Assembly: GCF_022340605.1 (NCBI RefSeq)
Contig: NZ_JAJDNQ010000078.1
Location: forward strand, 1 to 64,000
Origin: Thiohalocapsa sp.
Lineage (GTDB): Bacteria > Pseudomonadota > Gammaproteobacteria > Chromatiales > Chromatiaceae
DNA: 64,000 nt
Reading direction: 5' to 3'
Below the pieces are notes generated by a model, which saw nothing but the letters and a program-made list of their open reading frames with translations, was not told the origin of the DNA and did no database searches. This document shows, in pieces, positions 10,325-46,271 of this stretch. The translations under genes and the position numbers were made by a program. How positions within the stretch are numbered: position 1 is the first letter of the stretch; the number at the start of each line of letters is the position of its first letter.

Positions 10325-11350
10325 TCAGGCGGCCGGCGGCGCATCCGGATAGAACGCGCTACCGAGGAAGCGATCGCCCTCCGGTGCCAGGGTCCGATCC
10401 CAGAAACCGGGCTCGGCGCAACCGAGACAGCCGTGACCGGACAGCATCGGGAAGCTGGTCCCGAGGTTCCACTTGAGCGTCGCGCAGGCGTTGTGGGCCT
10501 TCGGCCCCTTGCAGCCGAGCTTGGCCAGGCAATAGCCGTTGCGGGCGCCCTCGTCGTCGAACGCGAGCGCGAAACGCTCGTTCCGGAAGTGCATCAGCCG
10601 CGGGCAACGCTGGTGCACGGTGTCGGCGAAATAGGCCACCGGCCGCCGCAGGTCGTCCAGCTCGGGCGGTGTCCCGAAGGCGAGGAAATGGGCGATGACG
10701 CCGGTCATCGCGCCCGGCACCGGCGGGCAGCCCGGCACGTTCACCAGGGGTCGCTCTGGCACCTCGCTCGCCGACATCAAGTCGCCGACGCCCTTGGCGC
10801 CAGACTGATTCGGCCGCTCCGCGGCAATGGCCGCCGCCGCCGGCACGCCGCCGAAGGTGGCGCAGGTGCCGACCGCGATCACCAGCGCGGCGCCGTCCAG
10901 GGTCTCCTTCAGCATGTCGAGGTTCGTCTGGCCCGCGATGGTGGACCAGGTGGCCTGCTCGCCAGTGGGCACCGCGCCATCGACGATCAACACGTAGCTG
11001 CCGAAGTTGTCGTCGATCGCGTTCTGCCGGGCCAGCTCCGCGGCCTCGCCGCTGGCGGCCTGCAGCGTGTGGTGATAGTCGAGGGACAACTGGTCCAGGA
11101 TCAACGACTCGATGGTTGGCTCTGCGGCCCGCGTCAGGGACTCGGTGCAGCCGGTGCACTCCTGGAACGACAGCCAGATCACACAGGGTCGTTGCGCCGC
11201 CGCCAGATTCGCCGCCATGGTCCTGGCCGCCCCCATCGGCAGGGCCAGTGCCGATGCGGTCACGGCACAGAAGCCGAGGAAGCCGCGCCGGCTGATGCCG
11301 CGCCGGCTCAGGTAGTCGATGAAGGACTCGCGCTCTGTCATGTTGCTCAC
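10325..11350 (-). CDS. [NiFe]-hydrogenase small subunit precursor
   Basis: Tat motif ISRRGFLGF; CTGC, GTCATFGG, VPGCPP, CKGP, GHGCLGCAEP Fe-S motifs. Confidence 0.93.
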   Translation of the reverse strand: MSNMTERESFIDYLSRRGISRRGFLGFCAVTASALALPMGAARTMAANLAAAQRPCVIWLSFQECTGCTESLTRAAEPTIESLILDQLSLDYHHTLQAASGEAAELARQNAIDDNFGSYVLIVDGAVPTGEQATWSTIAGQTNLDMLKETLDGAALVIAVGTCATFGGVPAAAAIAAERPNQSGAKGVGDLMSASEVPERPLVNVPGCPPVPGAMTGVIAHFLAFGTPPELDDLRRPVAYFADTVHQRCPRLMHFRNERFALAFDDEGARNGYCLAKLGCKGPKAHNACATLKWNLGTSFPMLSGHGCLGCAEPGFWDRTLAPEGDRFLGSAFYPDAPPAA

Positions 11351-11700
11351 CTTCGGGTCGGGCAGATCCGACTTCAGGACTAGACAGGTAATCTGAAACA
11401 GGGCTCAGGACCATCAGGGTTAGTCGGTCCCCCTGGGTTTGAGCTGCGCCAGGTCAAGAAGGTGCGCAGGCGAGCGGCCAATCCGGAGCAGCCGGGACGC
11501 AGGCGTGGCTGGCGCCGGCCTCGTCGTGTCCGAAGCGCCCGGCGGCGAGGCCAACCCGAGGCATTCCTCCGCCGCGGACGCTGTAGGATGCAGCCGGGTG
11601 CGCCACCTTGCAGCGGATCGACGGATTGCACGCGCGCCGGCCGTCCCGACGACAGGAGCGCGACCGCGCCCTGTTACACACCTTCCCGAGGCAGAAAGGC

Positions 11701-12417
11701 ATGTTTCTCGACCCCTATCTCAGCGGCGACGCCGATGCGCCGCGTATCTCCGCCGCGCAGGGTAATGCCTTCGCCAAGGACATCGCCGGCGATTTCAACC
11801 CGATCCACGACGCCGACAACCCGCGTTTCTGCGTTCCCGGCGACTTGCTCTTCGCGCTGGTGTTGACCCAATTCGGGCTGAGCAGCCGAATGGAATTCCA
11901 TTTCAGCGGCATGGTTGGCGCCGATGTGCCGCAGCGGATCGACAGCTCGGACGAACAGGTGCTGGTGCGCGACGAGTCCGGCAAGACCTGCCTCACCGTC
12001 ACCCGTGCCGGCGCCTCGACCCGGGACCCGGACCTGATCGAGTCGCTGGTGCGGCGCTACGTGGCCTTCTCCGGCCACAACTTCCCCCACTTCCTGGTCC
12101 CGCTGATGCAGCGCCACGGCGTCATGATCAACACCGAGCGGCCCCTGGTCATCTACGAGCGCATGGCCTTCGAACTGAGCAGCCTGGATCGCCCCCTGGA
12201 CGGGCTGGAGCTCGTCGACAGCACGCTGGACGTCGCCGGACGCCGCGGTGACGCGCGCCTGCGTTTCGACCTGACATCCAACAGCGAGCGCATCGGCGAA
12301 GGCACCAAGAAGCTGGTCCTGAGCAGCCTGCGTCCGCTGGACCAAGCCGCTCTGGACGGGCTCGTCGCGCGCTATCACGGCTGGGCCGCGGCGCACCGGG
12401 GCAAGGCGGGCGGGTGA
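11701..12417 (+). CDS. DUF3581-like protein
   Basis: MFLDPYLS...FNPIHDADNPRFCVPGDLLF. Confidence 0.75.
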   Translation: MFLDPYLSGDADAPRISAAQGNAFAKDIAGDFNPIHDADNPRFCVPGDLLFALVLTQFGLSSRMEFHFSGMVGADVPQRIDSSDEQVLVRDESGKTCLTVTRAGASTRDPDLIESLVRRYVAFSGHNFPHFLVPLMQRHGVMINTERPLVIYERMAFELSSLDRPLDGLELVDSTLDVAGRRGDARLRFDLTSNSERIGEGTKKLVLSSLRPLDQAALDGLVARYHGWAAAHRGKAGG

Positions 12418-24001: not shown

Positions 24002-24433
24002 ATGCAATTCATCTATCCCGCGACCCTGACGCCCGACCCCACCGGTGGCTTCGTGGTCACTTTTCGCGACTGGCCGGAGGCCATCACCCAGGGCGAGAGC
24101 CCCGACGAGGCGCTTCTGGAGGCAGCCGACTGTCTGGAAGAGGCCGTCGCCGCGCGCATCGACGATCGAGACGAGATTCCGGCGGCCTCGGCCCCTCTGC
24201 CCGACGAGCATCCGGTGGCGGTCCCAATCCAAACCGCGCTCAAGGCAGCGCTGTTCTTGGCCATGCGCGAGACCGGCGTCGGCCCGACCGAGCTTGCGCG
24301 GCGCTTGGGCATCCACGAGAAGGCGGCGCGACGCCTGGTCGATCCCCGTCACGCAAGCAAGGCAGCGACGCTGGAGCAGGCATTGCTCACCGTCGGGCGA
24401 CGTCTGGCGATCGCGATCGAAAAGGCAGCGTGA
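24002..24433 (+). CDS. hicB: HicB-family antitoxin with HTH domain
   Basis: MQFIYPATLTPDPTGGFVVTFRDWPEAITQGESPDEALLEAADCLEEAV...; directly downstream of hicA. Confidence 0.88.
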   Translation: MQFIYPATLTPDPTGGFVVTFRDWPEAITQGESPDEALLEAADCLEEAVAARIDDRDEIPAASAPLPDEHPVAVPIQTALKAALFLAMRETGVGPTELARRLGIHEKAARRLVDPRHASKAATLEQALLTVGRRLAIAIEKAA

Positions 24434-24800: not shown

Positions 24801-24848
24801 TTCGTGTTTCGAGGTGGGCTTAATGGTAGTCCTGATAGTCCACGATGA
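24681..24848 (+). pseudogene. REP-associated tyrosine transposase (RAYT) N-terminal fragment
   Basis: MPRRTGIVAAGFPMHVILRGIDRAAVFFAQ, then unrelated sequence after ~24770. Confidence 0.65.
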
Positions 24849-25104
24849 TGGCATCTTCGCCGTCGAAGGCAAACGTCAGGCGCCAATTGCCGCTGACCGA
24901 TACCGCCCAATGCCCGGCCAGATCGGCTGACAATGGGTGCAGCTTCCAACCGGGCAGGTTCATATCCTGCGGGGTTTTGGCGACGTCGAGGCGGGAAAGC
25001 TGGCGCGAAAGCCAACTTGCGTGTGGAGCCTGGATGCCGGCTTTCGGTCCGGTCTCGAAGAAGCGCTGCAGCCCTTTGTGCCGGAAGTGCTTGATCACGC
25101 GCAT
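24820..25104 (-). CDS. higB: HigB-type RelE-superfamily toxin
   Basis: MRVIKHFRHKGLQRFFETGPKAGIQ...LPGWKLHPLSADLAGHWAVSVSGNWRLTFAFDGEDAIIVDYQDYH*. Confidence 0.88.
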   Translation of the reverse strand: MRVIKHFRHKGLQRFFETGPKAGIQAPHASWLSRQLSRLDVAKTPQDMNLPGWKLHPLSADLAGHWAVSVSGNWRLTFAFDGEDAIIVDYQDYH

Positions 25105-26602: not shown

Positions 26603-28012
26603 CTAAGGCAGCAGCACTGCCCCGGCCAGGCCCCTGAGCAGCCCATCCACGCCGAACCCAAGCCCGACGGTTAACGCACCCGCGAGCAGCATCGCCGTCT
26701 GCGCCCAGGGCCCCAGCACGGCGACCCGGGGCGGTGGCGGCTCGAAGTACATCGGGCCGATGACGCGGGCGTAGTAGAACAGCGAGATCACCGAGTTCAG
26801 CACCACGGCCACCGCGAGCCAGCTCAGGCCGCCGTCCACCGCCGCCAGCATCAGCAAGAGCTTGCCCGCGAAGCCCACGAGCGGCGGAATCCCGAGCAGC
26901 GACAGGAGCGCGATGGTCAGCACCAGCATGCTCCAGGGCCGCGCGCGGGCGAGTCCGCGATAGTCCTGAAGATCAGCGCGCCCCCGCAGCCGCGCCACCA
27001 CGGCGAAGGCGGCCAGGTTGGCCGCCGCATAGCCGGCGAGGAAGACGATCAGCGCCGGCAGCGCCTGCCCGCTGCGGCCGATCATGGCCACGGCCACCAG
27101 CAGATACCCGGATTGGGACACCGACGACCAGCCGAGCAGCCGGCGCACGTCCGTCTGCCGCAGCGCTGCCAGGTTGCCCAGGGTCATGCTCAGGACGGCC
27201 AGCGTGGCAATGAGCCCGGACCAGCCTGCGAGCTCGCCGCCGAGCACCTGGCCGAGGCGGGCCAGCGCGACGGCCGCGCCCACCTTCGGCACCACGGTGA
27301 GATAGCCGGCCGCCGGCACCGGTGCGCCTTGGGCGGCGTCCGGCATCCAGGTGTGCGCCGGCACGGCGCCGAGCTTGAAGCAGAGCCCGATCACCACGAA
27401 GGTCGCCGCGACCAGCCAGGCCGTGTCCGGCTGCCCGCTCCCGACCGCCTCTTTGATGACGGCGTACTCCGTCGAGCCGGCCAGCCCGAACAGCCAGACG
27501 ACGCCGATCAGCAGCAGCGCATTCGCCAGCGCGCCCACCAGGAAGAACTTCATCCCGGCCTCGACGGACAGGTCATCGCCGCGGTGATAGGCGGCCAGGG
27601 TATAGCCGGTGGTCGAGCTGAGCAGGACGCCGATGACCAGCTCCATGGTGTCGGCGGCGCCCGCCATCATCAGCGCACCGACGGTCGCGAACAGCAGCAC
27701 CGCATAGTATTCGCCGTGCCTGGGGTCGCGGCGCAGCCATTCCGGCGACATCAAGAGCACCAGCAGCGTCCCGCCCAGAATGATGAGCTTGGCCCAGACG
27801 GTGACGCGATCGATCGCCCAGGTGCCGCTGAAGCCGAGCGCCGCGGGCCAGCCCAGTTGCAAGCCCGCGGCCGCCGCCGCCACGACGAGCCCGAGCGCCG
27901 CGAGCAGCGCGCAGAACCCCTGCTGCCGCCGCGGCAGCAGGCTCGCGGACAGGATCACCACGATGGCGGCCAGCAGCACGGCGAGCTCCGGGACGAGCCG
28001 TGCCAGCGGCAT
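26603..28012 (-). CDS. Complex-I-like subunit N
   Basis: 469-aa antiporter-like subunit; LSVEAGMKFFLVGALANALLLIGV, AHTWMPDAAQGAPVPAAGYLTVVPK. Confidence 0.88.
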   Translation of the reverse strand: MPLARLVPELAVLLAAIVVILSASLLPRRQQGFCALLAALGLVVAAAAAGLQLGWPAALGFSGTWAIDRVTVWAKLIILGGTLLVLLMSPEWLRRDPRHGEYYAVLLFATVGALMMAGAADTMELVIGVLLSSTTGYTLAAYHRGDDLSVEAGMKFFLVGALANALLLIGVVWLFGLAGSTEYAVIKEAVGSGQPDTAWLVAATFVVIGLCFKLGAVPAHTWMPDAAQGAPVPAAGYLTVVPKVGAAVALARLGQVLGGELAGWSGLIATLAVLSMTLGNLAALRQTDVRRLLGWSSVSQSGYLLVAVAMIGRSGQALPALIVFLAGYAAANLAAFAVVARLRGRADLQDYRGLARARPWSMLVLTIALLSLLGIPPLVGFAGKLLLMLAAVDGGLSWLAVAVVLNSVISLFYYARVIGPMYFEPPPPRVAVLGPWAQTAMLLAGALTVGLGFGVDGLLRGLAGAVLLP

Positions 28013-28013
28013 C

Positions 28014-29513
28014 TCAGCCCGCCACCAATCGCGTGGCCGTCGCGCCGATCACCGTGAGTGCCCAGCCCGGATAGACACCCAGTACGACGACGAGCAACAG
28101 CAGGCCGCAGAGCACCAGGGTCTCGGACCAACCGAGATCGGCAAAGCCCGACCAACGCGCCGGCAGCTCGCCGAAGAAGAGCAGTTGCAGCATTTGCAGG
28201 AACAGCGCCGCCGTGATCAGGATGCCGAGCAGGGCAATGGCCGCGAGCCAGGGGTAGACAGCGAAGGCCCCGGCGAAGACCTGGAATTCCGCGACGAAGC
28301 CCGCGAGCCCCGGCAGGCCCAGGCTCGCGAAGGCGGCGAGCACCGTGAGGCCGGTCAGCCGCGGCGCGCGCCGCGCCAGTCCGCCATAGGCGCGCAGCTC
28401 GTACTCGCCGCCGCGCTGCCAGAAGGCGCCCGCGATCAGAAACAGCGCGCCCGTGATCAGGGCGTGGGCCACCATCTCGAACGTTGCGCCCGTCAACGCC
28501 ACCGCCCGCGCGCTCGCCTGCCCGCTCAGCCCGGCGGCCGCCGCGATGCCGAGCACGACGTACCCCATGTGATTGACCGAGGTGTAGGCGATGCGCCGCT
28601 TCAGGTTGGTCTGCCCCCAGGCCACCAGGGCGCCGTAGACGATGGACACGACCGCGACGATCGCAAGCGGCAAGGCGTAGTGCGCAAAGGTCTCGCGCAG
28701 CATGGAAAACGGCAGACGCACCAGCCCGTAGGTGCCCATCTTCAGCAGCACGCCGGCCAGGATCGCCGAGGCCGGCCCGGGTGCGTCCACGTGCGCCGGC
28801 GGCAGCCAGGTGTGAAAGGGCACGATGGGCGTCTTGATCCCGAGCCCCAGGATCAGACCGAGCAGCACGAGCCCCGCGTAGGTCCCGCCCCCGGAGAGCG
28901 GCTGCGCGGCGATGAGGGTGCGCATGTCGAAGGTCAGCGGGTCCGTCGCCAGCACCAGGCCGATGATGCCGAGCAGCATCGCCAGCGACCCGCCAAGCGT
29001 ATAGATGAAGAACTTGAGCGCCGCCCGCCTGGCGTCCTCGCCGTGGCCAAAGCGGCCGATCAAGAAGTACATCCCCACCAGGCTGAGGTCGAAGAAGACA
29101 TAGAACAGCAGCAGGTCCAGCGCCAGGAAGACGCCGAGCGAGATGCCGTCGAGGAAAAGCAGCCAAGCGTAGTAGTGCCGCAGCCGGCCTTCGTCGGACG
29201 CGGAGTTGGGCGGCGGATAGGCGACCGCGGCGACGAAGACCAGGGCGCTGACGCTCGCCACCGCGAGCGCGATGCCGTCGACCCCGAGCCGCCAGGCGAC
29301 ACCCAGGGTCGAAATCCAGCGCAGCTCCTCCACCAGTTGGAACAGCGGCGCATCCGCCGCGGCGTCGAAGCGCACCCAGGCCACGACGAGCAGGACGAGC
29401 GGGATGGATGCGATGAGCACGGCGGCGATGCGCAGCCCCCGCGGGCTCGCATCGCGCCAGGCGGCGAGCAGCACGGCGCCGATCAATGGCACCCATATCG
29501 TGGCGCTCAGCAT
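28014..29513 (-). CDS. Complex-I-like subunit M
   Basis: PFHTWLPPAHVDAPGPASAILAGVLLKMGTYGLVR. Confidence 0.92.
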   Translation of the reverse strand: MLSATIWVPLIGAVLLAAWRDASPRGLRIAAVLIASIPLVLLVVAWVRFDAAADAPLFQLVEELRWISTLGVAWRLGVDGIALAVASVSALVFVAAVAYPPPNSASDEGRLRHYYAWLLFLDGISLGVFLALDLLLFYVFFDLSLVGMYFLIGRFGHGEDARRAALKFFIYTLGGSLAMLLGIIGLVLATDPLTFDMRTLIAAQPLSGGGTYAGLVLLGLILGLGIKTPIVPFHTWLPPAHVDAPGPASAILAGVLLKMGTYGLVRLPFSMLRETFAHYALPLAIVAVVSIVYGALVAWGQTNLKRRIAYTSVNHMGYVVLGIAAAAGLSGQASARAVALTGATFEMVAHALITGALFLIAGAFWQRGGEYELRAYGGLARRAPRLTGLTVLAAFASLGLPGLAGFVAEFQVFAGAFAVYPWLAAIALLGILITAALFLQMLQLLFFGELPARWSGFADLGWSETLVLCGLLLLVVVLGVYPGWALTVIGATATRLVAG

Positions 29514-29514
29514 C

Positions 29515-31365
29515 TCAGGCTCCGAGCAGGACGAAGGCCGCCATCCCGACCGCGCCGGCCGCGATCCAGAACAGGTAATGATGGGCGAGCCCCGTCTCCA
29601 GGTGTCGCAGGTCGCGGCCGGCACCATCCGTGAGCCAGGCAGCGCCCTCCGCGGCTCCGTCCATGACGCGCTCGATCCCCCGCGCCGTGACACCCACGGA
29701 CCAGCGGCCGAGCCGGGCAATGCCCGTGGGAATCGCATCCAGCACGGCGTCGTCGAACCGCGCCGCCGCCGTCGCCAGCCGCGCCAGCGGGCGCGAGACG
29801 GCAGTATCCACCAGGGTCGGCAGCCCGAGCCAATCCGCCAGCGCGCCATCGGCGTCGCGCTCGCCCAGGCGCGGCCGGCTCGCCACCAGCCAGCGCGCGG
29901 CGTAGAGGCCGACCCCCAGCGCCAGCAGTGTCGCCCGCGTCATCCACAAGGTCTCGCTGGGCAGCGCGGAAGCGAGGCCGGAACCGGCACTGGCATCCGG
30001 GCCGGCCGCCAGCCAATCCCTCACCGGCGGCGCCAACAGCAGCGACAGCGCAAGCGTCTCCACCGCCAGCAAGGTGACGGCGGCCATGGCGCCGCGGCCC
30101 GGCCGCGCGTGGAGCTCGCCGCCCTCCCCGCCCGAAGGTCCGAACACCTGCCACTGCCAGCGCGCCGCGTAGCAGCCCGACAGCGCCCCGACGAGCAGCA
30201 CGCCCGCAGCGAGCCAGGGGCTCCACTGCTCCGCTGCCGCCCCGATCAGCTCCTTGCTCCAGGCACCCGCGAGCGGCGGGACGCCCGCGAGCGCCAGGGT
30301 GCCGATGAGCGACAGCAGCGCCAGCCGCGGCAGGCGCCGGCCGAGCCCCAAATCGGCGAGCAGCGCGCTGCCCCCTGCCGACGCGGCGAGACCCGCGCTC
30401 AGGAACAACAGCGCCTTGAAGGAAGCGTGCACCACCAGGTGCAGCAGGGCGACCAGTGGGTAGCCAGCACCCACGGCCACCCACATGAGCCCGTAGTGGG
30501 CGGAGGTCGAGGCCGCGAGCAGCCGCTTGACGTGGGGCTGGAAGACCGCCACCAGACCACCGCCCACGGCCGTCGCGAGCCCGATGCCGATGACGGTCGG
30601 GGCGACCCAGCCAACACCGGCCAGCACCGGCTGCAGCCGCACCAGCAGGTAGGCCCCCGCGGCCACCATGGTCGCGGCATGCAGCAGCGCCGAGACCGAG
30701 CTCGGCCCGGCCATGGCGCGAAACAGCCAGAACGAGAACGGGAGCTGCGCCGACTTGGCGGCAGCAGCCAGCAGCAGCCCGGCCGCCACCAGGTGGAGCG
30801 GCCACCCGTGCAGCGTGCCGATCGCCTCGAACGCGAAGGAGCCGGTGGCCGCGAAGGTGGTCATCGCGGCCAGGAACAGGCCCAGGTCGCCGAAGCGCGT
30901 CACCAACAGCGCGAGTGTCGCGCTGCGCGGGTTCTCGAGCGCACGCCAGTCGTGCGCGATCAGCGCCCAGGAGCAGGCCCCCACCAGCTCCCAGCCGATG
31001 AGCAGGGTCAGCAGATCATCGGCCACCACCAGAAGCTGCATGGCGCCGGCGAAGAAGAGCAGCAGCGCGACCAGCCGCGTCAGCCCCGCGCGGGCCTCGT
31101 GCATGGCCGCGAAGAGCACCACGGGGAGCGCAACCGCCGGGACGAGGCAGACGAGCACGTCGCTCGCGGGCGCGAGCCGGGCATGGAGGGTGATTGCCGG
31201 CCCAAAGCCCCACTGCCCGCTCCAGTCACCGAGCACCGCCGCCGCGCTCTCGCCGAGCGCGGCGAGCATGGCTGCCGTGCCCCAGGCCGCGAGCGCGATA
31301 CGCCCGCGCAGGCCCAGCGCCAGTACGGCCGCGAGCATGGCGGTGAGCGGGAGCAGCCAGAGCAT
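29515..31365 (-). CDS. Complex-I-like subunit L
   Basis: LLIGWELVGACSWALIAHDW..., GPSSVSALLHAATMVAAGAYLLVRL. Confidence 0.92.
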   Translation of the reverse strand: MLWLLPLTAMLAAVLALGLRGRIALAAWGTAAMLAALGESAAAVLGDWSGQWGFGPAITLHARLAPASDVLVCLVPAVALPVVLFAAMHEARAGLTRLVALLLFFAGAMQLLVVADDLLTLLIGWELVGACSWALIAHDWRALENPRSATLALLVTRFGDLGLFLAAMTTFAATGSFAFEAIGTLHGWPLHLVAAGLLLAAAAKSAQLPFSFWLFRAMAGPSSVSALLHAATMVAAGAYLLVRLQPVLAGVGWVAPTVIGIGLATAVGGGLVAVFQPHVKRLLAASTSAHYGLMWVAVGAGYPLVALLHLVVHASFKALLFLSAGLAASAGGSALLADLGLGRRLPRLALLSLIGTLALAGVPPLAGAWSKELIGAAAEQWSPWLAAGVLLVGALSGCYAARWQWQVFGPSGGEGGELHARPGRGAMAAVTLLAVETLALSLLLAPPVRDWLAAGPDASAGSGLASALPSETLWMTRATLLALGVGLYAARWLVASRPRLGERDADGALADWLGLPTLVDTAVSRPLARLATAAARFDDAVLDAIPTGIARLGRWSVGVTARGIERVMDGAAEGAAWLTDGAGRDLRHLETGLAHHYLFWIAAGAVGMAAFVLLGA

Positions 31366-31670
31366 CAGTGCTTCATGCTCCCGAGCCGGTCGGTCATATC
31401 CACTTCCCGGCGTCGGAAAACGGCGACGACGAGCGCAAAGCCGATGGCCATCTCCACCGCCATCACCGCCATCGCGACGATGGCCAGCAACTGCCCCTCC
31501 GGCAAGCCCCCGGTGGTCAAGGACCAGAAGCCCACGGTGGCCAGCAGCACGCCGTTGATGATGAGCTCCAGACCCATCATCAGCATCACGATGGACTGCT
31601 GCGACAGCGTCCCGTACACGCCGAGCCCGATCAGGCCGGCCGCCACCACCCCGATGGCCTGCAGGGTCAT
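31365..31670 (-). CDS. Complex-I-like subunit K
   Basis: 101 aa, 3 TM; IVMLMMGLELIINGVLL. Confidence 0.9.
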   Translation of the reverse strand: MTLQAIGVVAAGLIGLGVYGTLSQQSIVMLMMGLELIINGVLLATVGFWSLTTGGLPEGQLLAIVAMAVMAVEMAIGFALVVAVFRRREVDMTDRLGSMKH

Positions 31671-32227
31671 GGATCTTCCTCGATGGCTGGATCGACGGCC
31701 GGTGGCACCGAGCCCAGGTCCGACGGGCCGAAGCGCCCCGAGCGGCTGGACAGGATGACCACGCAGAGCATGGTGGCGAGCAGCGTCACCCCCGCCGACT
31801 CGAACACCAGCATCGATGGGCCGAGCAGCTCGCGCCCGAGCGGGGCGATCACCTCGGCGCCGCCCGGCAGTGGCCGGTCCGGCAGGTCGAGGCTCAGCGC
31901 AAAGGCGCTGAGGCCGGCAAAGGTCACGAGTCCGGCGACGATGGCGAGGCCATGCTGATGGACCATGACCATCGGATTCAGCCCGGCCGGGTTCATCATG
32001 AACATCACCATGAACAGGGCCATGACCATCATCTCCACGGCCATCATGAAAATGGTCGCAAAGCCGAGATAGGCGGCGCCGAGCATCAGCATCATGGCGC
32101 CCACCGCGATGAAGGACGCGAGCAGCAAGAACGACGCGCGCACCATGGAGTCGGTACGGAACACGCGCCAGCCTGTCAGCAGCGCCACCGCGGCGAGCAG
32201 CCAGAAGACGCCGTCCGCCCAGCTCAT
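31667..32227 (-). CDS. Complex-I-like subunit J
   Basis: Polytopic, overlaps neighbours; gene order. Confidence 0.85.
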   Translation of the reverse strand: MSWADGVFWLLAAVALLTGWRVFRTDSMVRASFLLLASFIAVGAMMLMLGAAYLGFATIFMMAVEMMVMALFMVMFMMNPAGLNPMVMVHQHGLAIVAGLVTFAGLSAFALSLDLPDRPLPGGAEVIAPLGRELLGPSMLVFESAGVTLLATMLCVVILSSRSGRFGPSDLGSVPPAVDPAIEEDP

Positions 32228-33150
32228 CGCAACGCCTCCAGGCCGGCGATGGCGAGATCCAGAAACGACAGCGGCAGCAGCACCACCCAGATGAAGGTCA
32301 TCATGCGCGACGCGTCCGGCCGGGCGAGCAGGTGACCGAGCACGACCAGCACGGCCGCGACGAGCCCGGCCTTCAGCGCGAGCCAGACGGGCCCCGGCAG
32401 CACCGGCCCCAGCGGCCCGCCGAGGAAGACCGTCGCCGCCATCGCGGCGAAGGCCACCAGCATGGCCGCCCGCGCGAGCTGCCAGGCGAGCCGGAGCTGG
32501 GCGTTGTCCTCGGCGGAGGTGCCGCCCGCCAGATCCGGCGCATCGGCGTAATCCAGCGGCCCGCGCAGCGTGATGGCGAGCCCGAGCAGCAGAAACAGCG
32601 GCAGGCCCAGGGGCTGGCGGACCAGGTTCCAGAGCTCGCGCTGCGACTCGACGATGGCGGTCAGGCGCAGCGACCCGGCCGGCAGCGCCGCACCGATGAG
32701 CACGAACATGCTGACCAGCATGATGGAGAGCCCAATGGCGACGAAGCGATAGGCGCCCATCAGCGGCAACAGCGCGTTGCTGGACCAACCGTGCAGGAAG
32801 ACGGCGATCACCGTCAGCGCCTCCACCGCCCCCCAGACGACGATGCCGGCCTCGACGTCCACGGGCGCCCGACCCACCGCCACCGCCACCGGCACCAGCG
32901 CCAGCCCGGCCGCGGCGAGGCCAAAATACAGTGCCGGCGCGAGCCGCCAGGCGGCGAGATCCGGGCGCTCCGTGCTGATCGACTGGCGGCGGATCACGGC
33001 GCGCAGCCCGCCGAGCGTCAGGCGATCATCGTCATCGATGGGCACCCGTCCCAGCAGGCGCCAGGCGAGCGCGTCCAGCACACCCACCAGGATCATGCCG
33101 GCGAAGAGCACGCAGAGGGTGAGGGGCAGCGCGGTGAGCGGGCCCATCAT
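32224..33150 (-). CDS. Complex-I-like subunit H (divergent)
   Basis: Polytopic; position; degenerate ITLRGPLDYADAPDLAGG where NuoH has a conserved acidic loop. Confidence 0.8.
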   Translation of the reverse strand: MMGPLTALPLTLCVLFAGMILVGVLDALAWRLLGRVPIDDDDRLTLGGLRAVIRRQSISTERPDLAAWRLAPALYFGLAAAGLALVPVAVAVGRAPVDVEAGIVVWGAVEALTVIAVFLHGWSSNALLPLMGAYRFVAIGLSIMLVSMFVLIGAALPAGSLRLTAIVESQRELWNLVRQPLGLPLFLLLGLAITLRGPLDYADAPDLAGGTSAEDNAQLRLAWQLARAAMLVAFAAMAATVFLGGPLGPVLPGPVWLALKAGLVAAVLVVLGHLLARPDASRMMTFIWVVLLPLSFLDLAIAGLEALR

Positions 33151-34415
33151 CCTGCCGCCCCGAGCATCCGGCGCAGGGCATCGGGCGAGAAGCTGGCGAG
33201 CACGCTGACGGCCTGGCCCCATTCGAGACCGCGGAGCAGCGCATCCAGGTCCAGTGCCGGCCGGTCGCCCCGGTCGCCGCCCGCGGGCGCGCCGAGCGCA
33301 CCCGCCGGACCTTCCAGCCCCTCGGCGAAGGTCGTCGGCGGCAGCCCCTCCAGCCGCGCCGCGAGATCCAGCGCCTGCGCCGCCTCGGCGAGCCACTGAT
33401 CGATGCGGGCACGCACATCGCCGGCTTGCCGGGCGATGGGCGCAAAGCCGACCCCGGTGTATGGCTCCAGCCGCGTGCGCAGGTCGTCCGGCACCCCAGC
33501 CGCGCGCAGCGCCGGCCCACTCAGACAGCCCCGCTGCGCTGCACTCAGAGTGCCGAGCCCGGGCGCGATGCCCGGCCGCAACCCCGAGAGCCAAAGCCAC
33601 CGCCTGAGCGACCCGAGGTCGACCCTGCCGCCAATCGTTGCCCGATACGCCGACGCGTAGGCGCGGGCCGCCGGCGCTGCGGCACCCCGCAGGGCGCAGA
33701 AGCGCCCGAGGCAGCGCAGATGGTGCACCGCGCGGGCGCGCTCGAGACCGGCGGCCGACATGGGCCGGTCGATGGCCGCGGCGAAGGGTGCCTCCACCAT
33801 CGCATCGCGAAACGGCGGCTGCATCACCTCGACCCGCTGGATGACGTCGCCTTGCAGCCGCAAGTCCAGCGCCAGGCCCGGCGGCAGCATGGGCGCGAAC
33901 GGACCGAGGGTGACCGCGTGGGCGTCGAGCCTGAGACCGTCCCGCAGCTCGTCGCCACGCATGGTCATGGGGCGCCCGTAGGGCGTACCACCCATCATGC
34001 CCTCCCCGCCCTGACCGTGCGGCCCCTTGCCCAGCCAGGGTGCCGGCGGCTCGTTCGGGAGCAGGTCCGGCGACGAGCCCCTGGCGCCACGGTCCAGATC
34101 GCCCTGCAAAGCGCGCATTGCGACGGCGGGCGTGGCGGCCGGTGCGAGCGCCACCGCGTCCGGCACCGGCTGCGCCCCCTCGCCCCAATGGAGCACCGCC
34201 CGCGGATGTGGCATCTGGTCGTGCACCCGGCGCAGCGCGGGCCAGCTCCGCTCCGGCAGCCGTCCCGCGATCAACAGCAGGCTGGCGGCGCGCGGCGTGG
34301 GCACGCGCCGCAGCCCGGCGTCCCGCGCCAGACCCTCGACCCACGCCAGGGCGTCCTCGCCGATAGCGGCGAAGTAGCGAACTTGCCGGTGTCCGCGCGG
34401 GATCGCTTCGCTCAC
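33147..34415 (-). CDS. Divergent NuoB-like/NuoD-like fusion lacking Fe-S and quinone-site motifs
   Basis: GTG start overlapping the upstream TGA; PRAASLLLIAGRLPERSWPALRRVHDQMPHPRAVLHWGEGA (NuoB-like, no Cys) then GPFAPMLPPGLALDLRLQGDVIQRVEV...GCLSGPALRAAGVPDDLR (NuoD-like). Confidence 0.8.
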   Translation of the reverse strand: MSEAIPRGHRQVRYFAAIGEDALAWVEGLARDAGLRRVPTPRAASLLLIAGRLPERSWPALRRVHDQMPHPRAVLHWGEGAQPVPDAVALAPAATPAVAMRALQGDLDRGARGSSPDLLPNEPPAPWLGKGPHGQGGEGMMGGTPYGRPMTMRGDELRDGLRLDAHAVTLGPFAPMLPPGLALDLRLQGDVIQRVEVMQPPFRDAMVEAPFAAAIDRPMSAAGLERARAVHHLRCLGRFCALRGAAAPAARAYASAYRATIGGRVDLGSLRRWLWLSGLRPGIAPGLGTLSAAQRGCLSGPALRAAGVPDDLRTRLEPYTGVGFAPIARQAGDVRARIDQWLAEAAQALDLAARLEGLPPTTFAEGLEGPAGALGAPAGGDRGDRPALDLDALLRGLEWGQAVSVLASFSPDALRRMLGAAG

Positions 34416-34759
34416 TGCCACCGGAAGATCCCCTCCCGCCAGCCGTAGAAGATGCCAATGGACAGGATCAGCAGGAACATCCCCATCTCGGCCAGCGCCT
34501 TGGCGCCGATCTCGGCATAGACCACGGCCCAGGGGTACATGAACATCATCTCCATCTCGAAGGCGATGAAGAGCAGCGTCATGGGGTAGTAGCGCAGGTG
34601 GAAGCGCTGCCAGGCGTGCGTCGCAGGCTCGCTGCCGCCAAGAAAAGGCACCTTCTGCGGCTCGCTGCCCGGCATCGGTCCCACCTCGACCTGGGCAAGC
34701 AGCAGCATCAGCCCGCCGGACAACAGCAGGATGAGCGCGAGCGCGATCAGCGCTGTCAT
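34412..34759 (-). CDS. Complex-I-like subunit A
   Basis: RFHLRYYPMTLLFIAFEMEMMFMYPWAVVY. Confidence 0.92.
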   Translation of the reverse strand: MTALIALALILLLSGGLMLLLAQVEVGPMPGSEPQKVPFLGGSEPATHAWQRFHLRYYPMTLLFIAFEMEMMFMYPWAVVYAEIGAKALAEMGMFLLILSIGIFYGWREGIFRWQ

Positions 34760-37112: not shown

Positions 37113-37642
37113 GAGCAGCGCGATGGCTCGCGCCCGCCGCGGCCAAGCTTGGGCGCACGAACCCAAGCACGCCCGCCTGATCCGAATCGGCGACGCGGAA
37201 CGCCTCAACCCCGGGGCACTGTCATGCGCGCGCCGGGGCGCGCTATCTCCCACGATCCAGGATCAACCTGGCCAGTCGATTGGCTTGCGCCCGACTGGCC
37301 TGACCGGGAGGCATTGGCCCGTAGCCGGACCAACGGCCGGAGACACCATTAGTGATCGCCCGGGCCATTCGGCAGGCAGGCACAGAGCGTCAGGCATCGG
37401 AGCTGTAGTGGGCACATCAGTTGCATTTTCCGCATGGTCATCCTCATGGGCTGGATAAAGGTCAGCCGCTGATCGACTCGCCACGATATTTGTAGCTTCA
37501 AGCAATAAATGCGCCAAATCTAACAGAGCATGCCGATTCCCGCGCCGTGGGCCAGGCGCCGCCGAACAAGCGCGACTTCTGGTGGATCGTCCCCACCATC
37601 GGGGGTCGGTTTCTCTCATCCGTGAGCTCACCGGAGGTCAGC

Positions 37643-37861
37643 ATGATCGAGCTGAAAGTCGAAGGCATGTCCTGCATGCACTGCGTCAAGGCGGTCACCG
37701 AGGCGCTGTCGCAGGTGCCGGGCGTGACGAAGGTCCAGGAGGTCAGCCTGGAGCAAGGCAGGGCCAGGGTGGAAGGCTCTCCGGACCCGGATGCCCTGGT
37801 CGCGGCGGTCAAGGAGGCCGGCTATCAGGCCGAGGTCCGTGAGGCGGGCGCAGCCGGTTGA
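37643..37861 (+). CDS. copZ: CopZ-like copper chaperone (HMA domain)
   Basis: [22 protein letters not shown]. Confidence 0.88.
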
Positions 37862-37949
37862 TGGCCATCGGCGGAGGCGCTTCGCCAGGAGGCGCTCTAT
37901 CCACGAGCCATCGGCTCAAGCATTGTCGTCCCGCCGGCAGGGGGTGGAC

Positions 37950-40475
37950 ATGACGAAAGAGGTGCGCATCGGCGTCGGCGGCATGACCTGTGCCTCCTGC
38001 GTGGCGCGGGTCGAGCGGGCCATCGCGCGCAAGCCCGGGGTCGAGTCCGCCAGCGTCAATCTGGCGGCGGAGACGGCGGTGGTCCGGTACGACGAGGTGG
38101 AACTCCCCGAGCTGCTGGAGGCGGTGCGCGGCGCCGGCTACGACGCCGTCGTCGAGCAGGTCAATATCGGCGTCTCGGGCATGACCTGTGCCTCCTGCGT
38201 CGCCCGCGTGGAGCGGGCAATCAAGGCGCTGCCGGGCGTGATCACGGCGACCGTGAACCTCACCACCGAGTCGGCGGCGGTCGAGTACCTGCCCGCCACG
38301 GTCAGCCGCGAGCGCATCGCCCAGGCGATCCGGGCGGCGGGCTACGAGCCGGCGGCGGCGGACGCGGCGCCGGACGCCGAGCACGCCCGTCACGAGCGCG
38401 AGCTGCGCGCCCTGCGGCGGGACCTGATCTTCGCCGCGGCGCTCACCGTCCCACTCTTGCTGATCAGCATGGCGCCCATGTTCCTGCCCGGCGTCCGGGC
38501 GCTGCTGTTGAAGCTGGCGCCTCTGCCGGCCTGGGACTGGATCGAGCTGGCGCTCGCCACGCCGGTCCTGCTGTGGTCAGGGCGGCGCTTCATCACCCGC
38601 GGCTGGGCGGAGCTGCGGCATCTCAGCCCCGGCATGGACACCCTGGTGCTGATGGGGAGCTGGTCGGCCTACCTCTACTCGCTCGCGGCGCTCACCATGC
38701 CGCAGGCGTTTCCGGAGGGGACGGCCCACCTGTATTTCGAGGCCACCGGGGTCATCATCACGCTGATCCTGCTCGGCCGCTACCTGGAGGCAGTCGCCAA
38801 GGGTCGGACCTCCCAGGCCATCCGCCGCCTGGTGGGCCTGCAGCCAAAGACGGCACGGGTGGTCAGCGCCGACGGCGAGACCGAAATGCCGGCGGATGCC
38901 GTGGTGCCGGGCGACCTGATCGCCGTGCGGCCGGGGGAGCGCATCCCGGTGGACGGCACCCTGACCGAGGGCCGGAGCCACGTCGACGAGTCCATGATCA
39001 GCGGCGAGCCCGAACCGGTGAGCAAACACCCCGGCGACGAGGTCATCGGCGGCACCGTGAACCAGACCGGCGCCTTTCGCTACCAAGCAACGCGGGTGGG
39101 CTCGGAGACGGTGCTGGCCCAGATCATCCGGCTGGTGGAGGATGCCCAGGCCGGCAAGCCGCCGATCCAGCGCGTCGCCGACCGGATCGCCGCGGTGTTC
39201 GTGCCGCTGGTCATCCTCGCCGCAGCGATCACCTTCATCACCTGGCTCTGGCTGGGACCGCAGCCGGCGCTGGAGCTCGCGTTCGTGGCGGCAGTCAGCG
39301 TGCTGCTCATCGCTTGCCCGTGCGCCATGGGTCTCGCCACGCCCACGGCCATCATGGTGGGCACCGGGCGCGGCGCGGCGCTGGGCATTCTGTTTCGCCG
39401 CGGGGCCGCGCTCGAGACCCTGGCGCGGGTGGACCGCATCGTGCTGGACAAGACCGGCACGCTCACCGTTGGGCGCCCGGCGCTCACCGACCTACAGTCC
39501 TACGGCGTTGCCGAGGACGAGGCACTGGCCCTGGCTGCCGCGGTGGAGCGCGACAGCGAGCATCCCATCGGCACCGCCATCGTGGCCGCGGCCCGGGAGC
39601 GCGGTCTGGCCCTGGCCGAGGCCACCGACGTGGACGCCGTCCCCGGCTACGGTATCCGCGCACGCATCGGTGAACGGCAGGTCGCCGTCGGTGCGCACCG
39701 CTTCATGGAGCAGCGCTCGGTCTCGGTGACGGCAGCCGCGGAGACGGCCAACCACCTCGCGAAGGACGGCAAGACGCCCATCTATGTCGCCGCCGACGAC
39801 GCGCTGATCGCCGTGCTCGCGGTGGCGGACCCGATCAAGCCCTCGAGCCGGGAGGCCGTGGCCCGATTGCAGGCGATGGGGCTCGAGGTCGCGATGCTGA
39901 CCGGCGACGGCTGGCGCACCGCCGAGGCCGTCGCCCGCCAGGTGGGCATCGAATCCGTGGTGGCCGAGGTGCTGCCGGCGGACAAGGCGGCGGAAGTCAA
40001 GCGGCTCCAGGAAAAACAGGGCGCAGAAGGCGGCAAGGTCGCCTTCGTCGGCGACGGCATCAACGACGCCCCGGCGCTCGCCCAGGCCGATGTCGGCATC
40101 GCCATCGGCACCGGCACGGACATCGCCGTGGAAGCCGGCGAGCTGATCCTGATGAACGGGGAGCTCACCGGCGCCGCGGATGCGGTAGCGCTGGCGCGGC
40201 GCACCCTGCGCACCATCCGGCTCAATTTCTTCTGGGCCTATGCCTACAACGTCGCACTCATTCCGCTCGCCGCCGGCGCCTTCTATCCGCTCAACGGCTG
40301 GCTGCTGAATCCAATGATCGCCGCCGGCGCCATGAGCATCTCCAGCCTGTTCGTCGTAACCAACAGCCTGCGCCTGCGCCGCTTCCGACCATCCCGGCCC
40401 GCGGCCAAGACCACGCCGTCCGATCAACCTCAAGGGTGGAACAACAGCTCCATGCAGACACAGGCGCCCAGCTAG
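37950..40475 (+). CDS. copA: P1B-type copper-translocating ATPase with two N-terminal HMA domains
   Basis: Two [36 protein letters not shown]. Confidence 0.95.
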
Positions 40476-41833: not shown

Positions 41834-41924
41834 TCTGCCCGATTGAGCTGGGCTCGGCGCGGCGAGCAAATTCGGCCCCACGGACCGCGGCGCCGTGGCA
41901 TGCATCCCGCGAGGGCCAAACAGG

Positions 41925-43299
41925 ATGACCGCACTTCGGCTGCTCACCCGCCCGTCGCTCTGGACAATGGTCTACGCGGGCATGATCGCGTGGTCGGCCT
42001 ACGCCCTCTGGGCCATGCCGATGGAGGTGCTGCCGCGCTTCGCGTATCCCCAGGTCGGCATCGTCGCGCACTGGCCCGGCGCCTCGCCTAACGAGATGGA
42101 GGCACTGGTCCTGAGGCCGCTGGAGGGCGAGTTGCTGGGGCTGTCCGATCTCGCGAGCCTGCACGCGCTCGGGCAAACGCTAAACCTGCTGACCCTCGGC
42201 GCCCTCACCGTCGCGGTGGGCCTGCTCGCCGACGACGGCATCATCGTCCTGGAGGCGATCTTTCACCGCTGGGAACAAGGACAGCTCGGCAGCGACGGGG
42301 TTTGGCTGGGCCTCAAAGACATTGCCGCGCCCGACAACAGCGGCACCCTGACAACGGTCTCGACCTATCTGCCGTTGGTCGCCGTGACCGGGCTCGCCGG
42401 CCTCTTCTTCGTCCCTTTCGCCCTGGCCATGAGCCTGGCGCTGATTGGCTCGCTCGTGGTCTCGCTGACACCGATTCCGCTGCTTGCCGCGAGGCTCAGA
42501 TCGTCGCGCCAGCCGGCGCAGACGCGCGGTGGCAGGCTGCTCGCGACGCTCGGCCGACTGAACAGCCGACTGCTCGATATCACCATCGCACATCCGCGCG
42601 TCAGTCTGGCCATCAGCGCGCTGCTGCTGGCGGCGAGCGCGGGCGCACTGGCGCTCGCGCCGACCCACTTTCTTCCGCTCCCCAACGAGGGTGTGCTGCT
42701 CGACAGCTTCACCCTGCCCCCGGGGACCTCACTCGATCAGACGCGCGCCACGATGATCGACCTGGACATGCTGCGCAAGCTCTCCGCGCAGGCCGTGGCG
42801 CGACTGCGCACCGTCCCGGCCCTAACCGACCTATTCAACAACGACGCCTATCCGGTGACGCAACTGCGGATCAGCCCAAAACCGGAGGCGATGCGCGCCT
42901 TCGCGATCACTCCCGCGGCGCTGAGCCGGCAGCTGCGGCCCACCCTGCGTGGGGACGTCATCGCCCAGATGCCGGATGGGGACTATCGATTGGCGCTCTT
43001 CCTGCGCCTCACCCACGCCGAGCGGCTCTCCACCGAGGCGCTCGGAGGCATCCTGATCAAGACCGGGCAGGGCTGGACCCCGTTGGGCATGCTTGCCGAT
43101 GCGCATTCGCTTCCGCCCCATCGTGCTGACCACGCTCACCGCGGTGCTCGGCATGCTGCCCACTGCATTGGGCTGGGGGATCGGTGCCGCGCCCGAGCAA
43201 GGGCTCGCCCTGGTCATCGCGGGCGGCGTCCTGTGGAGCTCCATCCTGTCCACCAACCTGCTGCCGACGCTCTATCTGCATTGGCGGCGGCCAGACTGA
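41925..43299 (+). pseudogene. CzcA/AcrB-family RND pump remnant with internal deletions and a frameshift
   Basis: N-terminus MTALRLLTRPSLWTMVYAGMIAWSAYALWAMPMEVLPRFAYPQVGIVAHWPGASPNEME; mid-segments; C-terminus RFRPIVLTTLTAVLGMLPTALGWGIGAAPEQGLALVIAGG in another frame; far too short for a full pump. Confidence 0.8.
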
Positions 43300-43312
43300 A
43301 CCGGAGGTCGAG

Positions 43313-43969
43313 ATGACTTGCTGTGCCATGTCCAACGCCGACACCGGCCGAATCTTCTCCCGCTTCGCGGGCATGCACCGCTGGCGCCATCGACTGCTGG
43401 GCCTGGAGCGCACCCAGCGCCAGCTCGTCGCGGGGCTGCGGCGGGCAGGCATCGTCGATGCCTCGCTGCTGGAAGTCGGCTGCGGCGCCGGGGAGCTCCA
43501 GCGCGCCCTGCTGCGGGCGGGCGCCAGCCAGGCGACGGGGGTCGACCTGTCGGCGGGCATGCTCGCCATCGCCCGGGCGGAGGCCGCGGCGAGCGGGATG
43601 TCCAATCGGACCGAATACCGCCAGGGCGACTTCACAGCGATGGCGGAAGAACTGCCGGACGCCGACGCGGTCGTCCTGGACAAGGTGGTCTGCTGCTACC
43701 CCGACTGGGAGCGCATGCTAGACCGCTCGCTGGGCAAGGCGCGCCGCCTCTACGCGCTCACCTACCCGCGCGACCGCGGCCTGACCCGGCTGGTGCTGCG
43801 GGCAATGCGCTGGGGCCTGCACCGGGCGGGCTGCTGCTACCAGCCCTACCTGCACGATCCCGAGCGCATCGCCGCGCGCATCCGGGAGCACGGCTTTCAC
43901 CGGGTTGACGCCGCGCTCACCCCGGTCTGGCTGACGGAGGTCTACGCCCGCGCCCGAGACAGCCGCTGA
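43313..43969 (+). CDS. Class I SAM-dependent methyltransferase
   Basis: LLEVGCGAGELQRALLRAGASQATGVDLSAGMLAIAR. Confidence 0.85.
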   Translation: MTCCAMSNADTGRIFSRFAGMHRWRHRLLGLERTQRQLVAGLRRAGIVDASLLEVGCGAGELQRALLRAGASQATGVDLSAGMLAIARAEAAASGMSNRTEYRQGDFTAMAEELPDADAVVLDKVVCCYPDWERMLDRSLGKARRLYALTYPRDRGLTRLVLRAMRWGLHRAGCCYQPYLHDPERIAARIREHGFHRVDAALTPVWLTEVYARARDSR

Positions 43970-44176: not shown

Positions 44177-44737
44177 ATGCGTAGAACACACTTGGCACCT
44201 CTTGCCCTGTCGGCCTTGCTGCTGGCAAGCCCGTTCGCCATGGCCGCCGAAACCGGCCAATCGCAGTCAGGGACCGCAACGAACACCGAAAGCGCAACGG
44301 CCATAAAGCCCGCCGCGGGCACCTCGGAAACCTCCGCTGCCGGTGCCGGTGCCGGGATGACGACGGGGAGCTCAGCGGCAACAGGGGCCGGCATGAAAAG
44401 CAGCGAGGGCAGCCAGAGCGGCCAGAGTAACGAGGGCGGCCAGGAGGCCGAGGAAAGCACCCAACCGGGCTACATGGGACCGGGCATGATGATGGGTGGC
44501 CCGGGCATGGCTGGTTGCCCCTACATGATGGGCGGCGGCGCGGGCATGGGGCCTGGCTACGGCATGGGTGGTCCGGGCGCGGGTAGGAGCGGCTGCATGG
44601 GCATGATGCACCATCACCACCACCATGGGACGTGCGGCGGGCAGAAGACCTACAACGCGCTGATGAATCGTCTTGACCTGATGGACGCGAGAATGGCCAA
44701 GATCGAGACCCTGCTGGAGGGGCTCATGCAGCGATAG
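44177..44737 (+). CDS. Secreted Met/Gly/His-rich putative metal-binding protein
   Basis: Signal peptide; MGPGMMMGGPGMAGCPYMMGGGAGMGPGYGMGGPG...CMGMMHHHHHHGTCGG; C-terminal amphipathic helix. Confidence 0.8.
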   Translation: MRRTHLAPLALSALLLASPFAMAAETGQSQSGTATNTESATAIKPAAGTSETSAAGAGAGMTTGSSAATGAGMKSSEGSQSGQSNEGGQEAEESTQPGYMGPGMMMGGPGMAGCPYMMGGGAGMGPGYGMGGPGAGRSGCMGMMHHHHHHGTCGGQKTYNALMNRLDLMDARMAKIETLLEGLMQR

Positions 44738-45681: not shown

Positions 45682-45896
45682 ATCTCGCAGGCGCAACACG
45701 CAATCAGCCGACCCGGTCTGCTGGACGCGCTCGACGAGACCGTAATAGCGCACCACGCGTTGATCGGCGTTACCGGGACGGGGCAGAATATCCGACCTTT
45801 TCAGTCGGCCATGCAGGACTCATCGCCGAACAACCGACAGCACAAACCCCGCTGGTCCATCGACCTATGCCTGCAACGCCAGACCGGAGATTCCAG

Positions 45897-46271
45897 ATGA
45901 ATAAGGTCATTCCGTTCACCGCCCTCTTCGCGGCGCTTGCGACGGCGCCCGCGAGCGCCGCAGATCAATTCCCGGACTCTGGCAAGACGATAGAACATGG
46001 TGCCATCAGCGAGGCCGACATGATGCACGGCGAAACCGGCGCCGGTGCTACAGGCCAGGGCGTCATCAACAGCGTTGATACGGACAAACGTATCGTCAAT
46101 ATCACCCATGGCCCCATCCCGGCATTGAGCTGGCCCGGGATGACCATGGACCTGCCGGTGACCAAGGATGTTGACCTGAACGGCATGCAGCCGGGCGACA
46201 AGGTGCGTTTCCACATCGCGCTCGGTGCCGATCAGGTCTACCGGATCACCGCAATTGACCCGACACCCTGA
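45897..46271 (+). CDS. CusF-like periplasmic copper-binding protein
   Basis: GQGVINSVDTDKRIVNITHGPIPALSWPGMTMDLPV. Confidence 0.88.
   Translation: MNKVIPFTALFAALATAPASAADQFPDSGKTIEHGAISEADMMHGETGAGATGQGVINSVDTDKRIVNITHGPIPALSWPGMTMDLPVTKDVDLNGMQPGDKVRFHIALGADQVYRITAIDPTP

Follow-up and report, generated by a model that had tools for sequence, protein, structure and literature searches.

A cofactor-less complex I-like operon with methionine-rich membrane subunits, linked to copper-resistance genes: a candidate for proton-coupled Cu(I) transport

A stretch of 64,000 nucleotides (nt) from Thiohalocapsa sp. (RefSeq assembly GCF_022340605.1, contig NZ_JAJDNQ010000078.1, positions 1 to 64,000 of the forward strand; hereafter the window) carries on its minus strand, at 26603-34759, an operon of eight intact genes related to respiratory complex I, in the order A-BD-H-J-K-L-M-N. 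The operon is judged, with slightly more confidence than doubt, to encode a cofactor-less member of the complex I superfamily that would perform proton-coupled transport of Cu(I) (or Ag(I)), probably export; we infer the identity of the metal, its crossing of the membrane, the direction and the stoichiometry. The wider proposal, on which we consider the case evenly balanced, is that such operons form an unrecognised class of multi-subunit Cu(I)/H+ antiporters, derived from complex I by loss of the redox cofactors and by lining of the E-channel with methionine (Met), and spread by plasmids in copper-resistance islands.

Seven of the genes encode membrane subunits, each of the usual complex I size. 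These are the NuoA-like subunit (34412..34759, 115 amino acids (aa); PF00507, 3.7e-25), the NuoH-like subunit (32224..33150, 308 aa; PF00146, 6.6e-37), the Met-rich NuoJ-like subunit (31667..32227, 186 aa; PF00499, 4.9e-15), the NuoK-like subunit (31365..31670, 101 aa; PF00420, 2.5e-15) and three antiporter-like subunits, all matching PF00361 at 2.7e-49 or better: NuoL-like (29515..31365, 616 aa; PF00361, 2.7e-49), NuoM-like (28014..29513, 499 aa; TIGR01972, 461 bits, above the cut-off of 263.8) and NuoN-like (26603..28012, 469 aa; TIGR01770, 329.7 bits, cut-off 332.6). The eighth, BD (33147..34421, 424 aa), encodes the peripheral subunit. All lie on the minus strand, and adjoining genes abut or overlap by at most 10 nt, which suggests a single transcript with translational coupling. 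The tight coupling and gene order given in the initial annotation, which was made from the sequence alone, agree with the Pfam and TIGRFAM matches. An identical order was found in most complete loci among about 100 examined in other genomes, and the operon is therefore no chance arrangement or local oddity. Homologous BD genes begin about 10 nt within nuoA, and for this reason the BD start is probably the GTG at 34421, instead of 34415.

BD is a degenerate NuoB-NuoD fusion, recognised by fragment matches, AlphaFold2 and Foldseek. It resembles NuoB only at residues ~36-80 and NuoD only at ~291-352, with low similarity. Its AlphaFold2 model, for which 59 homologs were used, has a predicted local distance difference test (pLDDT) score of 89.3 and a predicted template modelling (pTM) score of 0.88, and its best Protein Data Bank (PDB) matches in Foldseek are NuoD/49-kDa subunits (best 1.6e-8). 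None of the cysteine columns of BD is conserved among 85 homologs, seven of which are without any cysteine, and the cluster N2 cysteines of NuoB have no conserved counterpart in this set. The fragment matches, the NuoD-type fold obtained by structural comparison and the lack of conserved cysteines, N2 ligands included, bear out the early description of BD as a NuoB/NuoD-like fusion without Fe-S cysteines. At the position that we take, from alignment and general knowledge, to be that of the quinone ligand His38 of NuoD, 84 of the 85 homologs have proline, and the segment containing the second quinone-site residue, Tyr87, placed on the same assumption, is missing. Such sequences point to a subunit with neither cluster N2 nor a working quinone site.

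The best-conserved stretch of BD among the 85 homologs, PPAPW.G.G..GQGG.GMMGG.PYGR.M.M (33960..34046, minus strand), forms a Met loop between the NuoB-like and NuoD-like parts. When numbered from the start at 34415 (2 is to be added for the 424-aa protein), its methionines are conserved as follows: M140 in 83/85, M141 in 84/85, M150 in 82/85 and M152 in 81/85. It is, on this conservation pattern, a probable metal-binding loop. The loop is disordered in the isolated AlphaFold2 model, and therefore it probably folds against partner subunits or metal. About 31 BD proteins (L094-L134, mainly of alphaproteobacteria) are shorter and without the NuoD motif around residues 295-330, with the Met loop kept. 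One further match to the Met-loop query (G147/L053) was dismissed as a spurious antisense frame.

The NADH/Fe-S module C, E, F, G and I is encoded neither in the operon, as had been noted initially, nor in its flanks. Completion of the complex by nuoCEFGI genes located elsewhere had also been considered. The genome of the window does have a separate nuoA-N operon on another contig, and that operon is complete in itself. Canonical NuoD was found in 28 of the 32 carrier genomes searched; in the remaining four, Halomonas gemina, H. korlensis, Billgrantia antri and Vreelandella maris, no canonical NuoD, NuoI or NuoB scored above the cut-offs. The complex thus need not borrow the standard redox arm, and recruitment of canonical NuoCEFGI is ruled out as a necessity. 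A second nuo gene set, consisting of nuoA, nuoB, a fused nuoCD and nuoE-like genes, lies on a short contig of the same genome (L137, G000:C56). Locus L138 (G000:C120) contains NuoB-, NuoD-, NuoH- and antiporter-like genes resembling a group 4 hydrogenase or related complex.

Invariant Met are frequent in subunits A, J and K but not in H, L, M and N. Among columns conserved at 95% or more, Met occupies 22 of 100 in A/J/K vs. 9 of 297 in H/L/M/N (Fisher p=2.7e-8), and E. coli has three Met at those 100 A/J/K columns. In NuoA, the E-channel carboxylates are surrounded by the sequence FEMEMMFMYPW, and H54, M69, M71 and M74 are invariant in both subfamilies, type I and type II (see below). In NuoK, the invariant M29, M32, M67 and M70 flank the E-channel glutamates, M29/M32 lying near E35 and M67/M70, together with M74, around the second glutamate; M31 and M74 are nearly invariant. 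In NuoJ, M61, 62, 66, 69, 73, 77, 78, 86 and 88 and H90 are invariant in helix 3 and the following loop (31958..32047, minus strand). Helix 3, residues 51-78, is continuous in an AlphaFold2 model of moderate confidence, and M62, M66, M69, M73 and M77 form one stripe within ~80 degrees of one helix face. M62 occupies the position of E. coli Tyr59, which in the structure of an Mrp antiporter is E706, a residue along the proposed Na+ path (PMC7419157). By this analogy, a soft thioether in place of the Mrp carboxylate would suit soft cations, for example Cu(I) or Ag(I).

Proton-path residues were compared with those of E. coli complex I and of the genome's own complex I, and both subfamilies retain most of the key lysines and glutamates in L, M, N, K and A. 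L and M keep the key lysines, histidines and acids (M E144 is aspartate in type I), NuoN keeps K158, K217, K247 and K395, NuoK both E-channel glutamates, E36 and E72 (a few are aspartate), and NuoA its two acids. NuoN E133 is replaced by leucine or valine in both subfamilies (leucine in the window protein); the normal motifs ascribed to the antiporter-like subunits by the initial annotation are therefore mostly kept, with this exception. Departures extend to the rest of the operon beside the Met-rich A, J and K: NuoH E157 is a hydrophobic or small residue in both subfamilies (the window protein keeps K274), and NuoJ Y59 is Met in 99/99 sequences of both. All three of these replaced residues, NuoN E133, NuoH E157 and NuoJ Y59, have a role in coupling. 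The missing redox module, the lack of Fe-S cysteines and the mostly intact antiporter motifs support the early suggestion that the complex translocates ions with a driving force other than NADH/quinone chemistry.

Type II members (L037, L054 and L241-L255) have the order A-BD-H-J-K-L-M-N in every complete operon. Their BD proteins, 579-851 aa where complete, contain, besides His/Met repeats, two to five heavy-metal-binding HMBD domains (PF19335, down to 2.5e-70), L037 being the exception with one. Domains and repeats stand where type I has its Met loop, between the NuoB-like part and the NuoD-like part. The Met of A/J/K are shared by type II with few exceptions, in A. A gene for fatty acid cis/trans isomerase (CTI) adjoins the type II operons L243 and L244.

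Copper genes lie in the same window at 37.5-46.3 kb, all on the plus strand, and had escaped the initial annotation. They encode a CopZ-like heavy-metal-associated (HMA) domain protein (37547..37861; PF00403, 2.9e-16), a heavy-metal P1B-type ATPase with two HMA domains (37791..40475; PF00122, 3.2e-60, and PF00403 twice), a remnant of a CusA-like resistance-nodulation-division (RND) efflux pump (41895..43316; PF00873, 1.7e-53; tblastn with CusA, 4.7e-9) and a CusF-like periplasmic copper-binding protein (45867..46271; PF11604, 1.5e-26). A Met/His-rich protein between them (44177..44737; GYMGPGMMMGG...MMHHHHHH), without a Pfam match, is a possible metal binder by its sequence. Recurrent neighbours of type I operons, read by sequence inspection, include the multicopper oxidase CopA, CusA, CusB, P-type ATPase, DUF411, MerR/CueR, cytochromes c and Csp-like proteins. 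By a conservative test, 43 of the 73 operons have copper genes at a distance of 10 kb or less, compared with 1 of the 20 canonical nuo operons taken from carrier genomes (p=8.7e-6, a value that is only indicative because the loci are not independent); the paired comparison gives 13/20 vs. 1/20. Annotated plasmid records of Halomonas sp. KO116, Roseivivax marinus and Acuticoccus place the operon within copper clusters. Copper linkage of the type I family is regarded as very probable. Transport of inorganic carbon or Na+, to which the assays proposed at the outset referred, has no support from gene neighbourhoods, and nothing else points there.

Relatives are encoded in 116 stretches found in a scan of genome contigs, of which the best 80 were retained. 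Carriers include Halomonas and its kin (Halomonadaceae), Salinisphaera, Marinobacter, Bowmanella, Rhodanobacter, Aurantimonas, Fulvimarina, roseobacters, Novosphingobium and a metagenome-assembled genome (MAG) of Gemmatimonadales. BD-like matches are also present in five plasmid records. The operon was not found in same-genus relatives of the window genome, and, in a sample of 368 other gammaproteobacterial genomes, 16 have NuoJ of the methionine type. In the NuoM tree, the copy of the alphaproteobacterial Maritimibacter clusters with Marinobacter (support 99/97) and type II forms a clade; the tree leaves the root and the position of the window sequence unsettled. The patchy occurrence, the plasmid copies and the Maritimibacter/Marinobacter grouping indicate horizontal transfer of the operon. 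Two divergent copies occur in one genome, a Salinisphaera MAG (G256; L050 and L052), and locus L079 has, unlike other loci seen, a gap of ~750 nt between BD and H (11296-12047). The ergothioneine biosynthesis genes egtB and egtD lie directly downstream of nuoN in many Halomonadaceae (L096, L140 and others). In the window, the operon is followed downstream by genes for a HigB-like toxin (24820-25104, minus strand; PF05015, 5.2e-20) and a HicB-like antitoxin (24002-24433, plus strand; PF15970, 1.6e-9). Dispersed inverted repeats of 47-85 nt, of the GTGGGAGCGGC...GCCGCTCCCAC type, are paired at 23066-23150/25169-25253, 22565-22626/35384-35445 and 22491-22537/35474-35520, one copy lying in the region upstream of nuoA; they are possibly REP-like elements.

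In the proposed mechanism, BD would be the docking subunit on the cytoplasmic side and would bind Cu(I) by the Met loop in type I and by its HMBD domains in type II. From there the metal would move to the periplasm along the Met of A, K and helix 3 of J, which line what was once the E-channel, and inward proton flow via L, M and N would pay for its movement, as Mrp couples Na+ to H+. Several observations weigh against proton-coupled Cu(I) transport. The putative metal site of the Met loop falls in the disordered part of the isolated BD model; the placement of Met in the E-channel is derived from alignment and not from a structure of this complex; and the A/J/K Met could instead serve oxidant scavenging or helix packing. 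By the conservative test 30 of the 73 loci have no copper gene, CueR-like boxes upstream of nuoA were not enriched over shuffles, tested copper genes are rare in type II flanks, and a Pyr_redox_2 flavoprotein is encoded directly upstream of nuoA in three of ten type II loci (L245, L247 and L250).

The same conserved residues, including the kept proton path, would also serve a copper-gated proton/cation channel or antiporter, in which bound metal opens or regulates ion flow to keep pH or ion balance under copper stress, copper itself does not cross, and BD may be a metal sensor. The invariant Met stripe on NuoJ helix 3, with the Met of K and A, resembles a path and not a single sensor site, and this reading is considered improbable, if less so than the other alternatives. 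Somewhat less probable is a copper-redox-driven ion pump, in which Cu(I)/Cu(II) chemistry at the peripheral subunit would supply the electrons that power ion pumping in the membrane arm. It would agree with the metal-binding domains of BD, the kept proton-path residues and the co-expression with copper genes in Marinobacter atlanticus, for which it was suggested by the authors of that study (PMC8233155). Since BD has no conserved redox ligand and the quinone-site residues, NuoH E157 and NuoN E133 are lost, such a pump would be without a visible electron acceptor or coupling path; a peripheral redox reaction, moreover, needs no long Met lining. The flavoprotein mentioned above could be an example of the different electron-input partner envisaged by the initial annotation for a complex I-like enzyme. 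That idea is left with this type II candidate, no such gene recurring in type I flanks, and is quite unlikely given that BD lacks cluster ligands and that carriers without canonical NuoB, NuoD or NuoI exist. The Met lining and proton coupling could also run inward, as in a Cu(I) importer for cytoplasmic cuproprotein assembly using the same path reversed; the operon lies within resistance clusters with exporters and detoxification enzymes, and its metal-binding subunit is, by analogy with complex I, on the cytoplasmic side, making import the least probable of these readings by a little.

If proton-coupled Cu(I) transport is correct, it would show that the complex I scaffold can be put to metal transport in place of electron-driven proton pumping, and a redox-free system with a transported ion would become available for studying the disputed E-channel/antiporter coupling. 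A proton-driven route of copper resistance would also be added beside P1B-type ATPases and CusA. Partial nuo operons are readily mis-annotated as NADH dehydrogenase.

The operon has a likely precedent in Marinobacter atlanticus CP1. A complex I-like cassette that includes a hypothetical protein is reported there to lie in a copper-resistance cluster and to be co-expressed with it on an electrode at 160 mV, and copper redox is proposed as its energy source (PMC8233155). The account, which concerns one species, gives the cassette as nuoADHJKL, lacking M and N, and its passages on the cassette make no mention of a BD fusion, a Met lining, an HMBD subfamily or a wide distribution. Likened by its description and not by sequence, the cassette probably belongs to the same family or a close relative. 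No other paper joining complex I-like genes and copper was found among the open-access papers searched, preprints aside, and a paper on copper in Alteromonas does not mention NADH, quinone or complex I (PMC8478169).

CusCBA (RND) and P1B-type ATPases share with the operon the proposed task, Met-based handling of Cu(I), HMA/HMBD-type modules and the same gene clusters, whereas their folds and energy coupling are unrelated to this multi-subunit complex I chassis. Energy-converting hydrogenase-related (Ehr) complexes, which are described with Fe-S small subunits, are likewise kin of complex I in which the NiFe site is absent; in the operon studied here, cluster ligands are not conserved. The likeness to respiratory complex I (NDH-1) lies in A, H, J, K, L, M and N in nuo order, most of the key proton-path residues and the B/D remnants; the operon differs in having no C, E, F, G or I and no conserved cysteine, in the lost quinone-site residues, in Met-rich A/J/K and in replacement of NuoN E133, NuoH E157 and NuoJ Y59. 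Mrp antiporters belong to the same superfamily and similarly have antiporter subunits without a redox module, with a cation path proposed via the NuoJ/NuoK homologs, past the position of Met62 of J. Unlike Mrp, the operon keeps A, H, the B/D remnant and a third antiporter subunit, has Met in place of the carboxylate E706 and is without MrpE, F and G genes. Because neither the redox features of complex I nor the subunit make-up of Mrp is found in it, the operon represents a new variant within the complex I superfamily.

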